Source: a virus
Reading direction: 5' to 3' (one strand)
Length of the DNA stretch: 31,465 bases
IMG/VR virus record: IMGVR_UViG_3300014962_000036
Coordinates: 1 to 31,465 of that record
The notes under the pieces were generated by a model. It worked only from the letters and a program-made list of their open reading frames with translations. It ran no database searches and was not told the origin of the DNA. The position numbers and the translations under genes are program-made. Below, piece by piece: positions 1,796 to 10,227 of the stretch; within the stretch, counting starts at the first letter, position 1; each line of letters begins with the position of its first letter.

Positions 1796-1806
1796 ATGAT
1801 GGAAAT

Positions 1807-1818
1807 TTGGTTACAAAA
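1807..1818 (-). promoter_or_regulatory. TTTTGTAACCAA motif, copy C
   Basis: Same 12-base core as copies A and B, again directly after a terminator T-tract (hairpin 1823-1855), 11 nt before the ATG at 1795. Confidence 0.5.
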
Positions 1819-1822
1819 TAAA

Positions 1823-1855
1823 AGAGGGAAGAACATTATTACATGTTCTCCCCTC
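1823..1855 (-). terminator. Intrinsic terminator upstream of gene 1619-1795
   Basis: Read leftward, GAGGG-G-AGAACAT pairs with ATGTTCT-T-CCCTC (one G.U wobble) and is followed by TTTTATTTTG. It must end a transcript coming from the gene-poor stretch to its right. Confidence 0.75.
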
Positions 1856-2516
1856 AAAATTTCCCCTCTGCACTCAGAATGTAATAGCTTCACCTGGACA
1901 TATGTCCATCTTTTGCAGGTTTTATTATTATCCTCAGACTTTGGTTCAATGACCTTGGCTCCTCTTACTCGATATTTTATTACCGCTATTACATATCTGC
2001 TCACCCTTGGGAAGTGAGTTGTGGTGCATTACAGCGAGCATTTTTTAGTTTGTTTCGTTCTCTATGTGTCCTTAATACCAACGAAAACTTTGCATCAGGT
2101 TTCAATACATGTTTATTGCCATCGGCCATGTATCGCTAAACTGACATAGATGCTGTGTGCTCCCGACCATCACAACAACTATTTTGGTGCATTAAAAAGA
2201 TAAGCGAGGTCAGATTTTGCCCACTCGCTTGTTTACATTGCCTGACATTCTCCATATAAATATGGTGGCTATAGTGATATTCTGTTTTTCAACAGAATAT
2301 AGCAATGAAACTCCCAATAAGCGTATGCATCCACTTATTAGGAAAAAAGAACAAACTCCTTTACCACAAGGTTGGCATATAATAGCCCATCAGTTTGTTC
2401 AATGTATGTTTTTTCGATTCAAGAAACATACAAAACTTGGGTTGTAGTTTTACTTCCCACTTAACCAGAGGAGAAGAAGCAGTTTATAGACATGCTTAGG
2501 TCTTTTTCTGCGAGGA
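1856..2516 (-). other. Gene-poor, hairpin-rich stretch
   Basis: No convincing gene is visible in these 660 bases. The only notable frame, a GTG-started 70-codon one at 1792-2004, would translate straight through the terminator at 1823-1855 and into the next gene. The stretch is instead dense in inverted repeats: a 14-base palindrome TGGACATATGTCCA near 1894-1907, a CGTT/AACG stem within about 2053-2090, ATACATG/CATGTAT within about 2107-2135, and the string of six hairpins annotated at 2202-2432. The most economical reading is one or more leftward non-coding RNAs. Confidence 0.5.
2202..2432 (-). ncRNA. Candidate structured RNA, six hairpins
   Basis: Read leftward, six hairpins follow one another with few unpaired bases. 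They are TGTATGTTT/AAACATACA (2403-2432), GAACAAACT/AGTTTGTTC (2349-2400, then TTTTTT), CC-AATAAG/CTTATT-GG (2314-2342), ATATTCTGTT/AACAGAATAT closed by a GAAA tetraloop (2277-2300), CCATA/TATGG (2252-2265), and AAGCGAG/CTCGCTT (2202-2230, then ATCTTTTTAA). A GTCAG/CTGAC pairing around 2213-2247 would interlock with the last hairpin as an H-type pseudoknot. The GAAA loop exists only on the minus strand, and one non-canonical pair is G.U there but C.A on the plus strand. There is no open frame of note. No known RNA family is recognised. Confidence 0.45.
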
Positions 2517-2788: not shown

Positions 2789-2894
2789 GAGGTGTCTCCT
2801 CTTTATTTGGTTTGAGCATGGCAAAGCATCTAAACCTATATATTGAACAAATATATAGACCAAACAGGAATATTCCTGTTTTGCACCAAATAAA
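2789..2894 (-). promoter_or_regulatory. Cloverleaf leader RNA, copy 1
   Basis: Read leftward, a 10-bp closing stem (2885-2894 with 2802-2811, TTTATTTGGT/ACCAAATAAA) encloses three hairpins. P2 is a 20-base perfect palindrome (2862-2881). P3 is CTATATAT/ATATATAG (2836-2858). P4 is ATG/CAT around a CTTTGC loop (2818-2829). Junction segments GTGCAAA, TTGGTC, GGTTTAG and GCTCAAAC are shared with copy 2 at 3207-3308, while the stems differ and still pair. A small GAGG/CCTC hairpin (2789-2801) and TATAAA follow before the start codon at 2768. It resembles a riboswitch or other structured leader; I recognise no known class. Confidence 0.65.
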
Positions 2895-2902
2895 AAAAGT
2901 GA

Positions 2903-2925
2903 GGTAGTTTATTGTCATACCTCAG
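2903..2925 (-). terminator. Terminator after gene 2935-3183
   Basis: GAGGTA/TACCTC stem with an 11-nt loop. Read leftward it is followed by AC and seven T, which merge into the first strand of the cloverleaf leader. Confidence 0.7.
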
Positions 2926-2934
2926 GACAGAAGA

Positions 2935-3183
2935 CTATTTTACCTTGTTGGGATATAGCCTTTTTGCTTCATTTTTGAAGCAAGTATAAGCTTTGTAATC
3001 CCTTCTGTTGTGTAGAGCGTATGTCTCACCCCAAACATTGTCAGTTGGTCCTAACTTATCTACACGGGTTACCCCATTGTAGGGGCAATAAATTTCCCAT
3101 TGCGAATCCTCTTTTGCAATTAAAGAAAGGACATAAAATTCAAATTTGTTAAAATTTACCCAATTGGGAACATTCTTTACCAT
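2935..3183 (-). CDS. Small hypothetical protein, 82 aa
   Basis: An unrecognised 82-residue protein, starting MVKNVPNWVNFNKFEFYVLSL. It is rich in aromatic residues, with WEIYCPYNG in the middle and a basic C-terminal segment (HNRRDYKAYTCFKNEAKRLYPNKVK). The two cysteines are far apart, so no metal site can be claimed. A small DNA- or RNA-binding or host-takeover role is conceivable from the charge and context only. It is monocistronic: terminator 2903-2925 follows it, and terminator 3317-3340 plus cloverleaf leader copy 2 precede it. Confidence 0.6.
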   Translation of the reverse strand: MVKNVPNWVNFNKFEFYVLSLIAKEDSQWEIYCPYNGVTRVDKLGPTDNVWGETYALHNRRDYKAYTCFKNEAKRLYPNKVK

Positions 3184-3206
3184 ATAACACAGTCTCTAAT
3201 ATTTAT

Positions 3207-3308
3207 ACACCTAATGGACCAGAGGTGTTGTGTTTGAGCGTCGTAAAGACCTAAACCTGTATATATAATAATATACAGACCAATAGACATTTGTCTATTT
3301 GCACACAA
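3207..3308 (-). promoter_or_regulatory. Cloverleaf leader RNA, copy 2
   Basis: Same architecture as 2789-2894. The closing stem is TTGTGT/ACACAA (3303-3308 with 3228-3233). P2 is AATAGAC/GTCTATT (3282-3299), P3 is CTGTATAT/ATATACAG (3257-3278), and P4 is GTC/GAC around TTTAC (3240-3250). Junctions GTGCAAA, TTGGTC, GGTTTAG and GCTCAAAC are identical to copy 1, while all four stems have changed on both sides. An ACACCT/AGGTGT hairpin (3207-3228) and TATAAA follow before the gene starting at 3183. Confidence 0.65.
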
Positions 3309-3316
3309 AGGAAAAG

Positions 3317-3340
3317 AGAGAGCCTCATTATAGGCTCTCT
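3317..3340 (-). terminator. Terminator after gene 3328-3723
   Basis: AGAGAGCC/GGCTCTCT, 8 bp, with the TAA stop of the gene inside the loop. Read leftward it is followed by CTTTTCC. Cloverleaf copy 2 begins only a few bases further on. Confidence 0.75.
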
Positions 3341-3723
3341 TTATTTATAATGTCTGTTGCCATCCTAATGACATCAACATCTCCTGCCACCTTTTCCTCA
3401 TCATAATAATAAGGAGCAGATTCTGTATCTGCCGTTGCACCCACAACATCTCCATTTCTGTCTAGGATGACAAGAGAATAGGCATATACATCCTGCCCAT
3501 CTGATGTCCAAGAAAGCTTGGAAACATTCAAATGAACGTAATATGTGCCTGTTATCTGCACATCTGTAGGCCACGCATTCTCGTAGAAAGTTTCCTCTTC
3601 TCCATCATAAACAGATTCTGTTTGAAACTGCCAATAAACAGCCCTATCATCATCCATCTCCATCTCACTTTCTTTAACAATCATCTCTTCCATATTAGGA
3701 AGAACAATCTTTAAGAGTTTCAT
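3328..3723 (-). CDS. Acidic hypothetical protein, 131 aa
   Basis: A 131-residue protein starting MKLLKIVLPNMEEMIVKES. It is strongly acidic (EMEMDDDR, YDGEEETFYE, YYYDEEKVAGDVD) and rich in Tyr and predicted beta strands, for example TGTYYVHLNVSKLSW and YAYSLVILDRNGDVVG. Acidic small phage proteins sometimes act as DNA mimics or inhibitors, but nothing specific supports this. No membrane segment or catalytic motif is seen. About 200 bases of hairpin-rich sequence precede the start at 3723, suggesting a long structured leader. The stop codon is embedded in its terminator. Confidence 0.6.
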   Translation of the reverse strand: MKLLKIVLPNMEEMIVKESEMEMDDDRAVYWQFQTESVYDGEEETFYENAWPTDVQITGTYYVHLNVSKLSWTSDGQDVYAYSLVILDRNGDVVGATADTESAPYYYDEEKVAGDVDVIRMATDIINKESL

Positions 3724-6837: not shown

Positions 6838-7156
6838 AACTACATATGTTAATGCAGAGCTTGATTGGGCTGAAGAACAACTTCAGTCCTGGAAGGCTTA
6901 TGTGGATGCCAATCCTCTTCACACTTTGAAGGATAGGATTGAATGGAAGCCCACATCAAAAGGAGGAATGCTTCCTATGGTGATTGCCAGTATTGAGGCA
7001 CAGGGTAAGTTTATTCAGGAGACAATGAAGAATTATTTGGCTCTTTTGGAAGTGGTTGACAAGCTTAGGAAGATTGAAGAGGCTAAGGTGGAAGTGAGGG
7101 GAAAGGTTGAGCTTGGAGGAATGGCTGAGGATTTTCTAAAGAGTAGGAATAAATGA
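6821..7156 (+). CDS. Possible small terminase subunit
   Basis: A 111-residue protein, mostly helical. Residues 5-30 (SKTTYVNAELDWAEEQLQSW), an ordered loop around DRIEWKPTSKGG, then a long helix from about residue 55 to 95 (MVIASIEAQGKFIQETMKNY and beyond) with coiled-coil character. The stop overlaps the start of the large terminase gene as ATGA, the usual place for TerS. Small terminases share little sequence, so the assignment rests on position, size and helical content. It could equally be an unrelated packaging accessory protein. No separate helix-turn-helix is obvious. Confidence 0.45.
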   Translation: MAKTSKTTYVNAELDWAEEQLQSWKAYVDANPLHTLKDRIEWKPTSKGGMLPMVIASIEAQGKFIQETMKNYLALLEVVDKLRKIEEAKVEVRGKVELGGMAEDFLKSRNK

Positions 7157-10100
7157 TTCATAGTATAGATTATAAAGATTGGCTTATAAATCAAAAGCGT
7201 CTCCCTGATAGGGAGTCAGAAGAATATAAACCCTTTTTTGACTTTCATAAGGAGCTATGCTTGGAAGGAGCTATGATGAATGGGGTGTATATCAACCCCT
7301 TTTTATATTGGCATTTGAACGTATGGCATACGGAAGTGGATATTATTGATGAGCGTGGGAAGATTTCCCAAAAATATAACAATCCTCTTCTTAGGGACAA
7401 TGAATGGATAGTGACCAATGAGATAGACAAAGCCCAAAAGGAAAAGAAAGGGCTTGTTATTCTTGGTATTAGAAGGTTTGCCAAAGCCCTTCAAAACGAT
7501 GAGCTTCTATATACACCCAATGGAGAAATAACCATAGGGGAAATAAAGGAAGGAGACAGGATATACGGAGCTGATGGAAAGCTCACCACCGTCACAGGAG
7601 TATTTCCTCAAGGGAAGATTCCTATATATAAGATGGTGTTGGAAGATGGAAGAACTATATTGTGCTGCGAAAACCATATTTGGAGGGTGAAAGATAGACG
7701 AAATGGAGGAAGTATAAAGAACCTCACCGTCAAACAACTTCTTCCAATATACAAAAACAAGAGAGTACATAATGGATACAAAGATGGTGTGCAAAGAACA
7801 GTTGATGAATGCCTCTTTGCTATTCCTAATAACAATCCTGTAGAATATGAAGAACAGGAGCTTCCCATCAGTCCTTATTTTTTGGGACTTTGGCTTGGTG
7901 ATGGAAGCTCAAGAAGGACAGGCATCACCACTATTGATAGGGAAATAGTCGATTATTTACATAAGTATGCTAGTTCTTTAGGACTTTTTGTAAGACAGGA
8001 TGAAACAGAATATATAATTACATCTGGCAAAATGGGAGGAAGGGCTGATAAAAATCCCCTTCTGAATGCCATGAAGGAATGTAATTTGATAAGAAATAAG
8101 CACATCCCTTCAGATTATTTGTATTCCAGTGTTGAGCAAAGGATGGAACTTCTCAAAGGTCTGATGGATACAGATGGTACAGTTTATTCAAACGGAACAA
8201 TAAGTTTTACAACTACAAATGAGAACATTGCCGAAGGATTTTACACCATATGTAGGAGCTTGGGAATAAACCTAACAAGAAAGAAGTTTATTCCAAAGTT
8301 GTATGGAAAACCCTGCGGAGAAGGGTGGTTGTTCACTATATTCACAGAACTTCCAATATTCAAACTGGAAAGAAAGCTGAAAAATTACAGAATAGGGAAT
8401 AAGGGAAAACAGTTTAAAATAAACTATACATCCATAAGAGAGATTTCTCTGATGGGAGAGGACTATGCCACTTGTATTACGGTGGATAATAAGGACAAGT
8501 TATTTCTAACTACCAATTACACTGTTACACATAATTCTGTATTGGAGGCAAGCTATATAGCATGGGGAGCTACATTTGATGAAAACTCTCAAAATATCAT
8601 TGCTGGTCTGAATGCTCCAGATATAAAACTAATTACGGACAAGATAGACAAAGGTCTTAACTTCCTTCCTGAGTATTGGAGGTGGCAGAGGATTGAGGAC
8701 AATTGGAAGAACCAAGTGACGTTAGGTATAAAGACCAGGGGAGGAGAAAGAATCCCGTTCTCACAAATCCTCATAAGGAACCTTGACGAGGGTAATAATG
8801 AAGAGGCTATTGCAGGTACAAAGCCCCGTAAACTCATCATTGATGAGATTGGTAAGGGAAGCTTTCTGAGAGGATTTCAGGCAGCTGTTCCTGGTTTCAC
8901 TACTCCTTATGGATGGGGATGTTCCCCCATTTTGACAGGTACAGGTGGTGATATGAAAAAATTCATGGACGCTAAATCACTTATGTTCGATGTGGACAAC
9001 TTCAACTTCCTTTCCTACAACAATTCAAATGATAGCAAAAGAATGCACGGATTGTTCATATCCTACAAATACCGCATGGAGGCTAAGGAACAATCTAGTT
9101 TGGGAGTCTACCTCAACACACCAGTCAACGATTTACACAACATACCTATGTTAGTGAGCAATGAATCACTAGCCAAGGAAATTACATCAAAGAATCTAGA
9201 AAGACTAAAGAAGGCAGGGGATAGGATAGCCTACCTAAAGGAAAAAATGTACTACCCACTTGAAGTGGATGACATATTTCTCAACGAAGACACTAACATA
9301 TTTGATATTGAAGCTGCAAAAAGGCAGAAGACAAGAATTCAGAATGCAGAAAAAACAGGGATTCCTGTAGTGTTGTTTGCTGATGAAAATAAGATTTCCC
9401 ACGAATTCACTGATAAACAACCAATTACAAACTTTCCTCTAAAAAACTCCGATTTAAAGGATGCTCCTATAATAATATATGAGTTTCCTGTAGAAAATCC
9501 TTCATACGGACTGTATGTTGCTGGAGTGGACCCCTACAGACAAGGGCAATCGGCATATAGCTCCTCTTTAGGAGCAGTGTATGTTTATAAACGAATGCAC
9601 GATATTACAGGAGAGAAATATCAGGACATGTTTGTTGCATCTTATGTAGCAAGACCTGATAAGAAAGAAGTGTGGGAAGAACAAGCAAGATTGCTCATCA
9701 AGTATTACAATGCAAGGACGCTTTGTGAAAACGATGACATATCCTTTATAGAATACATGAAGGCCAAGGGAGATGCCCATTATTTGGAAAAACAACCCCA
9801 ATGGCTTCTTGAAGTGGTACCAAACACCACGGTAAAGCGTGAATATGGTGTGCACAGGAGTTCTCAGAAGGTGATTGACTATCTGCACAATTGCCTCAAG
9901 AAGTATATGGAGGAAGTGATACATGTGGAAAAGGATGACGATGGTAATATTATAAGGGAAGTTACAGGGGTGAGCAAGATGTTCGACCCTGTACTTTTAG
10001 AGGAAATCATACAATATCATGATGGTGGCAACTTTGACCGTATAGTTGCTGCAGAACTGGCAATTGCACAGGCTTTAAAAATGGACCCCATAATGGGAAG

Positions 10101-10227
10101 AGTGGGGGGAAGTGGAGATAGTAGGGTGGCTGCACTGTTTTCAAAGAAACCAACAGAAAGAAGACTGTTCAATTCTTCTTCTTCAGGAATGTTTGGAACT
10201 AAAACAAAACGTAAACTTTTTACATAA
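7153..10227 (+). CDS. terL: Large terminase subunit with intein
   Basis: The packaging motor ATPase and nuclease, 1024 codons, of which residues 112-461 are an intein; the spliced protein would be 674 residues. The ATPase P-loop is GIRRFAK (105-111) joined after splicing to S462, matching the GxRRxxKS/T form of crAss-like terminases. Walker B is KLIIDE (560-565). The RNase H-like nuclease shows VAGVDP with D793, E859 in TLCENDD and D962 in FDRIVAAE as likely metal ligands. The gene starts inside the stop of the preceding small gene and ends on the start of the portal gene. Because the insertion splits the catalytic Lys from the following Ser, unspliced protein should be inactive as an ATPase. 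Confidence 0.95.
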   Translation: MIHSIDYKDWLINQKRLPDRESEEYKPFFDFHKELCLEGAMMNGVYINPFLYWHLNVWHTEVDIIDERGKISQKYNNPLLRDNEWIVTNEIDKAQKEKKGLVILGIRRFAKALQNDELLYTPNGEITIGEIKEGDRIYGADGKLTTVTGVFPQGKIPIYKMVLEDGRTILCCENHIWRVKDRRNGGSIKNLTVKQLLPIYKNKRVHNGYKDGVQRTVDECLFAIPNNNPVEYEEQELPISPYFLGLWLGDGSSRRTGITTIDREIVDYLHKYASSLGLFVRQDETEYIITSGKMGGRADKNPLLNAMKECNLIRNKHIPSDYLYSSVEQRMELLKGLMDTDGTVYSNGTISFTTTNENIAEGFYTICRSLGINLTRKKFIPKLYGKPCGEGWLFTIFTELPIFKLERKLKNYRIGNKGKQFKINYTSIREISLMGEDYATCITVDNKDKLFLTTNYTVTHNSVLEASYIAWGATFDENSQNIIAGLNAPDIKLITDKIDKGLNFLPEYWRWQRIEDNWKNQVTLGIKTRGGERIPFSQILIRNLDEGNNEEAIAGTKPRKLIIDEIGKGSFLRGFQAAVPGFTTPYGWGCSPILTGTGGDMKKFMDAKSLMFDVDNFNFLSYNNSNDSKRMHGLFISYKYRMEAKEQSSLGVYLNTPVNDLHNIPMLVSNESLAKEITSKNLERLKKAGDRIAYLKEKMYYPLEVDDIFLNEDTNIFDIEAAKRQKTRIQNAEKTGIPVVLFADENKISHEFTDKQPITNFPLKNSDLKDAPIIIYEFPVENPSYGLYVAGVDPYRQGQSAYSSSLGAVYVYKRMHDITGEKYQDMFVASYVARPDKKEVWEEQARLLIKYYNARTLCENDDISFIEYMKAKGDAHYLEKQPQWLLEVVPNTTVKREYGVHRSSQKVIDYLHNCLKKYMEEVIHVEKDDDGNIIREVTGVSKMFDPVLLEEIIQYHDGGNFDRIVAAELAIAQALKMDPIMGRVGGSGDSRVAALFSKKPTERRLFNSSSSGMFGTKTKRKLFT
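7486..8535 (+). mobile_element. Class 3-type intein with LAGLIDADG nuclease
   Basis: A 350-residue in-frame insertion, TerL residues 112-461. Block A is ALQNDELLYTPNG, so residue 1 is Ala instead of Cys/Ser. Block B (GRTILCCENHIWRV) has His at B:10 and Trp at B:12 (intein W66). Block F (ATCITV) has Cys at F:4 (intein C330). Block G (NYTVTHN) has Thr at G:5 and ends His-Asn, followed by extein Ser. Trp B:12, Cys F:4 and Thr G:5 are the signature of class 3 inteins, in which the F:4 Cys replaces the missing N-terminal nucleophile. Two LAGLIDADG motifs, YFLGLWLGDG (intein 131-140) and LLKGLMDTDG (222-231), mark an apparently intact homing endonuclease. Confidence 0.9.

Follow-up and report, generated by a model that had tools for sequence, protein, structure and literature searches.

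To our knowledge, only about nine to ten classes of natural self-cleaving ribozyme are known. Twister-sister, in its four-way form, is a multi-helix junction ribozyme, and hatchet cleaves at its own 5' side. In phages, hammerheads flank single genes, and cleavage of long phage transcripts has been proposed as their function (Perreault et al. 2011, PMC3088659); one of them, HHphage, is located 13 nt ahead of an early gene's start codon, and the 5' end mapped for its transcript falls within 3 nt of the cleavage site (PMC3088659). RAGATH RNAs take their name from their association with ribozyme-linked genes (PMC11061315), and hatchet and pistol, too, were found in the vicinity of such genes and of phage genes (PMC4604424, PMC4604425, PMC6154101). 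HK022 put, a cis-acting RNA of a phage early operon, consists of two stem-loops near a promoter (PMC9378689).

The window analyzed here, a viral DNA of 31,465 nt (positions 1 to 31,465 of IMG/VR record IMGVR_UViG_3300014962_000036), carries two copies of a four-way-junction RNA motif. An earlier note on this DNA had described two leader elements at 2789-2894 and 3207-3308 and named no strand; both are present, and their limits, taken from P1 to its 3' partner P1', were refined to 2804-2892 (copy A) and 3228-3308 (copy B), with both copies and all of their parts on the minus strand. Read from 5' to 3', the element consists of P1, GU, P2 (GCAAA...TTGGT), P3 (C...G), GUUU, P4 (AG...CU, with a bulged G), a position N, AAAC, and P1'. 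In copy A, the 5' strand of P1 (TATTTGGT, 2885-2892) has its partner ACCAAATA at 2804-2811, P2 (2859-2884) combines a GCAAA..TTGGT base containing an A.G mismatch with the hairpin ACAGGAATATTCCTGT, P3 (2836-2858) reads C[TATATA..TATATA]G, the GUUU linking P3 and P4 occupies 2835-2832, and P4 (2815-2831) reads AG-ATG..CAT-(G)-CT with G2817 bulged. In copy B, TTGTGT (3303-3308) pairs with ACACAA (3228-3233) to form P1, followed by P2 at 3302-3279, P3 at 3278-3257, and P4 at 3252-3237. Two covariance models, R1 built from 11 sequences and R2 from 29, score copy A at 74.4 and 71.8 bits and copy B at 81.4 and 74.9 bits, respectively.

Each copy leads a small gene on the same strand. Downstream of copy A lies a gene (2517-2768) for an 83-aa protein that has two CxxC pairs and matches no family above cut-off, and downstream of copy B one (2935-3183) for an 82-aa protein of no family. 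Several details reported previously were borne out: the blocks GTGCAAA, TTGGTC, GGTTTAG, and GCTCAAAC are identical in the two copies, the stems are unlike in sequence yet pair in both, and each copy is followed by a small hairpin, TATAAA, and then the ATG. None of the other carriers of the motif was seen to have this hairpin and TATAAA tail. A terminator-like hairpin (AGAGAGCC..GGCTCTCT plus a T run; 3314-3345, minus strand) lies directly upstream of copy B, and an equivalent one lies upstream of copy A at about 2895-2925 on the same strand. In single-sequence folding, the helices of the model were recovered at low energy, with z-scores of -4.2 for copy A and -2.4 for copy B, and shuffled sequences folded as well in 0 of 200 and 5 of 200 cases, respectively. 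Taken alone, the two copies in the window are weak to modest evidence for a structured RNA; the additional copies described below exclude chance.

When 2.9 million viral contigs were scanned for three of the blocks (TTGGTC, GGTTTAG, and GCTCAAAC), 12 stretches were returned, six of which carry the unasked fourth block, GTGCAAA, in the correct place, together with stems that differ in sequence but pair. Similarly, GCT(C/G)AAAC reappeared in matches from a scan that omitted it, as did GTGCA..GGTC in matches from another, so that the sequence blocks are not an artefact of the query. Among the matches of the scan omitting GTGCA..GGTC, no circularly permuted copies were found. Together, the pattern scans and covariance models yielded 31 copies in approximately 29 diverse phage records, each record holding one copy or two near each other. 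The later scans were near saturation, adding one new copy (L390). A covariance-model search, which the earlier note had proposed as a check, thus produced about 30 additional copies whose stems covary. Among the pattern matches, the majority of those in genomes and numerous ones in viral contigs were due to chance or to coding sequence and were rejected by structure and model score; none of the GTGCA(G/C)A variants searched for was true, and a similarity to MT835593 was rejected as coding-like (7.6 bits).

Covariation was evaluated in a 29-sequence alignment that was fitted to the covariance model and so favors the structure; in this alignment, 96.8% of pair cells are standard, compared to 32-42% for register-shifted partners, 15 of 23 pairs are changed on both sides, P1 covaries across the 29 copies, and double-change cells number 157, compared to 50.5 in shuffles. 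Alignment of the first 11 sequences by MAFFT, without any structure, gave 97.8% pairing. Mean pairwise identity among the aligned copies is 60%, and 26 near-invariant bases lie around the junction. One G.U pair is kept in 29 of 29 copies, and there are 57 G-U cells against 3 A-C cells, an imbalance implying that the sense strand is under selection as RNA. The motif is a structured cis-acting RNA family, its helices covarying above controls and its orientation the same as that of the downstream gene.

The alignment also defines the conserved anatomy. The base of P2 comprises an invariant G.U, a C-G, an A.G mismatch, a pair that swaps between A-U and U-A, and an A-U, beyond which covariation is free; through a compensated change in P2, 13 copies have GTGCAAA..TTGGTC and 16 have GTGCATA..TAGGTC. 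P3 opens with an invariant C-G, while P4 opens with AG/CU after the GUUU and has the bulged G opposite. The AC before P1' can pair either with the GU before P2, giving a longer P1, or with the GU of GUUU (GUUU/AAAC), giving a longer P4. Both of these alternative states are approximately 97% satisfied, and a natural variant, L218 (GC..GC), slightly favors the state that extends P1. The sole base of the block GCUNAAAC that varies freely is N, which is mostly C, G in several copies, and U in L390, and in L233 there is an insertion beside it. Long insertions are tolerated in both P3 and P4, and the 67-nt copy of L390 is the natural minimum.

The absence of any recognized RNA class, also claimed previously, held up, in that no Rfam 15 family matches the motif. 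Searches at both gathering and permissive thresholds (E up to 5-10) gave no overlapping match, a result that covers Rfam, whereas motifs published elsewhere could remain. Specifically, the Rfam models of hammerhead, hatchet, pistol, twister, twister-sister, HDV, and RAGATH do not match the motif, and neither ARAGORN nor the Rfam tRNA model detected a tRNA or tRNA-like RNA at the site. Phage hammerheads (RF00008, RF02276, and RF03152) resemble the motif in being intergenic and located a few nucleotides before the start codons of single phage genes, and in two carriers they share both this slot and 3' leader sequence with it, but the motif lacks the CUGAUGA/GAAA core and has a four-way rather than a three-way junction. 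Hatchet (RF02678) is likewise metagenomic, phage-borne, and composed of four helices; in contrast, its fold and conserved bases are different, and its model is unmatched. RAGATH RNAs, several of which proved to be ribozymes, are, like the motif, conserved phage and metagenome RNAs near known ribozymes, although they were found by gene association and the motif by direct pattern and model search. HK022 put shares with the motif its nature as a cis-acting RNA of phage early operons present in one or two copies per genome, but it acts on RNA polymerase and has neither a four-way junction nor a tie to an ATG. The blocks GUGCA, GGUC, GGUUUAG, and GCUNAAAC are not known to belong to the twister-sister core. 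Regardless of the chemistry involved, the motif constitutes an RNA family that is well supported and unregistered.

All copies except one are found in viral contigs. The exception, L113, is an 86-kb contig that has been binned into a bacterial draft genome and is probably phage. A scan of a genome collection gave at least one true match, no match to the motif was found in 395 Bacteroidota genomes under strict filters, and no isolate carriers were found in INPHARED. The window itself derives from a distant crAss-like phage, as judged by a portal 25-27% identical to those of Crassvirales and by its terminase and head families, and three other carriers are crAss-like by terminase: L215, L223, and L006, the last through resemblance to the terminase of the window. 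There are four crAss-like carriers by terminase or portal, but the motif is not general to the group: a set of 12 reference phage records, composed mainly of Crassvirales, contained no significant match (best E 0.05).

The motif is found among small genes of an early type, often oriented divergently with respect to the structural genes. It nearly always ends 5-40 nt before an ATG, and the genes that it leads are small and mutually unrelated. One phage clade has a common 133-aa family downstream, with a very basic 70-87-aa protein encoded just upstream of the motif. The ORF starts of the carriers examined are A-rich and have no real excess of Shine-Dalgarno sites, as in Cellulophaga phage phi14:2, which points to hosts of the Bacteroidota type. 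Terminator-like hairpins occur upstream of the motif in 29% of cases, compared to 17% in other intergenic gaps of the carriers, and are not clearly commoner there; placement next to a terminator was accordingly rejected as a special feature. As a separate observation, a conserved element, AGTGGTGACCACACTATAAACGGACG (a small hairpin plus TATAAACGGACG), lies just upstream of the motif in L002, L204, L219, L032, L237, and L011 and is possibly a phage promoter. Other features of the carriers include GroEL-like chaperonins (encoded by L001, L219, and L223), four CRISPR-DR7 repeats with 74-nt spacing in G027 (L316:2837-3095, minus strand), and, in one carrier phage, a group I intron (86.3 bits; L354:7083-7308, minus strand) beside several tRNA genes.

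In 4 of the approximately 29 carrier records, a known ribozyme is located 0.1-3.2 kb from the motif on the same strand. Two of these are hatchets: that in G003 (L003; 83.4 bits, L186:1219-1383, minus strand) starts 118 nt after the motif, the interval containing a 24-aa ORF and a hairpin, and that in L390 (56.2 bits, above cut-off; L390:5923-6092, plus strand) is 3.2 kb downstream. In G016, a genome of 183 kb, a RAGATH-1 hammerhead (60.7 bits, above cut-off; L318:163-229, plus strand) is located 1.3 kb upstream of two copies of the motif, with its end approximately 17 nt before an ATG. In L113, a hammerhead (L187:1176-1297, minus strand) is found approximately 190 nt downstream of the motif, after the motif-led 63-aa ORF, and ends approximately 20 nt before the next ATG; it scores far below the Rfam cut-off, having a long stem III, but is perfect by descriptor and fold, with CUGAUGA, GAAA, and a GGUUAA/UUAACC stem I. 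As controls, 148 kb of non-carrier viral DNA contained only tRNAs, hatchet was found in 0 of 22 control contigs, and the hammerhead descriptor had no match in 2.3 Mb of other loci. Hammerhead II was found neither across the carriers nor in the control genomes. A hatchet-like match in G028 was rejected as coding.

The two hammerheads also share sequence with the motif on their 3' side. In G016, the 3' product of the hammerhead (GUC/AAACUGUAAAAC...) and the 3' segment of the motif (GCUC/AAACUGUAAAAC...) have 14 nt in common (TCAAACTGTAAAAC), and the 12-mer CAAACTGTAAAA is found nowhere else in the 183 kb. In L113, an 11-mer (AACCAAATAAA) that is unique in the 86 kb is common to the product of the hammerhead (GUA/UUAACCAAAUAAA...) and to the motif (GCUC/AAACCAAAUAAA...). 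Compared with the other ORF leaders (433 and 156), the 14-nt and 11-nt matches rank first. Another G016 gene, which has no known ribozyme, matches the downstream half of the leader over 13 nt, indicating that the leaders are partly generic. The simplest reading is that the motif and the hammerhead do the same job, leaving the same kind of mRNA 5' end.

Leader words were also observed apart from the motif. A strongly folding stretch of 250 nt between a hatchet and an ATG (L415:5400-5656, plus strand) ends in AAACTCAAAA, the leader word of the motif in that genome, and is possibly a further new RNA. In the G004 phage, both motif copies have the leader AACCAAATAAA in common, and a third gene (L350:17400-17860, plus strand) has this leader without the motif, preceded by a structured gap of about 440 nt.

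The earlier note had offered a ligand-binding RNA, a ribozyme, or a protein-bound leader as possible identities. A conserved cis-acting RNA with covarying helices is confirmed, and among these options the evidence leans toward a ribozyme, because the slot and the 3' leader are common to the motif and known self-cleaving ribozymes, while a riboswitch is disfavored. We judge the chances to be evenly balanced that the motif represents a new class of self-cleaving ribozyme, built on a four-way junction, whose cut near GCUN/AAAC would leave a short A-rich leader. The fuller proposal, that it represents a new natural ribozyme class, interchangeable with hammerheads in phage early operons and making 5'-OH A-rich leaders for hosts that lack Shine-Dalgarno sites, is put forward more tentatively and falls somewhat short of even. 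The cut is placed at N/AAAC on the basis of the alignment of leaders with hammerhead products and the variability of N, and the predicted scissile bond in the window would be C2814/A2813 in GCTC/AAAC for copy A (2813-2814) and, on the same grounds, C3236/A3235 for copy B (3235-3236), both on the minus strand.

According to this model, the motif would act in cis in phages of Shine-Dalgarno-less hosts, as a four-way junction 5' of single early genes that cuts its own transcript near GCUN/AAAC. The short P1, weak and A/U-rich, would then open, and the downstream mRNA would be released carrying a 5'-OH, with about 20-30 nt of unstructured, A-rich leader ahead of the ATG. A long early transcript might thereby be cut into single-gene mRNAs, as has been proposed for phage hammerheads. 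In the window the leader is longer, with the extra hairpin and TATAAA. The lack of host-genome copies in the 395 Bacteroidota genomes also favors a ribozyme. Several points weigh against it. The motif core is unlike every known catalytic core, a known ribozyme is nearby in only 4 of the approximately 29 carrier records, and elements of all these kinds may merely accumulate in early intergenic gaps. The leaders are partly generic, permuted copies were absent from the scan mentioned above, and the strict 5'-leader position also fits a translational regulator. If true, the proposal would provide a new self-cleaving class that has a defined site of predicted cleavage and about 30 variants in nature. 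It would also bear on the means by which phages of Shine-Dalgarno-less bacteria produce and regulate early mRNAs for single genes, and on why ribozymes sit just before the start codons of such phages.

The main rival to self-cleavage, which we regard as a serious possibility albeit an unlikely one, is a translational or mRNA-stability leader recognized by a phage or host protein or by the ribosome, in which the junction would bind the factor and govern the accessibility of the A-rich start region, which lies about 10-30 nt downstream. Such a leader would be consistent with the location right before an ATG in almost every copy, the 26 near-invariant bases around the junction, the absence of Shine-Dalgarno sites from the carriers, the presence of one or two copies per genome, and the very basic 70-87-aa proteins encoded just upstream in one phage clade. 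However, no partner protein was found, the downstream genes are unrelated, and a translational leader does not predict known ribozymes that have the same slot and leader words.

A metabolite riboswitch, with the conserved junction binding a small molecule to control the downstream gene, appears improbable. The combination of a conserved junction, variable stems, and a 5'-leader position is what a riboswitch would display, and the mutually exclusive GU/AC and GUUU/AAAC pairings could serve as a switch, but beyond this alternative pairing neither an expression platform nor a systematic downstream terminator was seen, the unrelated small ORFs downstream have no common function, and the distribution (no copy in the 395 Bacteroidota genomes, and at least one true match in the genome-collection scan) speaks against it.

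We consider it similarly improbable that the motif is a put-like antitermination RNA, which would bind the elongating RNA polymerase and allow read-through of early-operon terminators. Restriction to phages, one or two copies in a region of small early genes, and nearby terminator-like hairpins would all suit such a function; on the other hand, HK022 put is a pair of stem-loops near a promoter (PMC9378689), whereas the motif is a four-way junction tied to an ATG. In addition, the motif sits after one or more early genes of the operon, and the terminators are upstream of it and not enriched. Finally, it is very improbable that the motif functions as DNA, whether as a cruciform promoter, a single-stranded DNA recognition site, or the like, for while phage N4-type virion polymerases use hairpin promoters and crAss-like phages carry virion polymerases, the 57 G-U against 3 A-C cells and the G.U pair kept in 29 of 29 copies are expected only for a sense-strand RNA.

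Several additional features of the window were recorded. Early genes at 1213, 1543, and 1805 (minus strand) have the leader TTTTGTAACCAAWTT in common, located 10-25 nt ahead of the ATG, and these leaders come after terminator-like hairpins. An intergenic stretch of about 720 bases among the early genes (1796-2516, minus strand) contains several hairpins and no convincing gene. On the plus strand, the large terminase gene (7153-10227) contains an intein carrying a LAGLIDADG homing endonuclease domain, with Pfam Hom_end and LAGLIDADG_3 at residues about 318-378.
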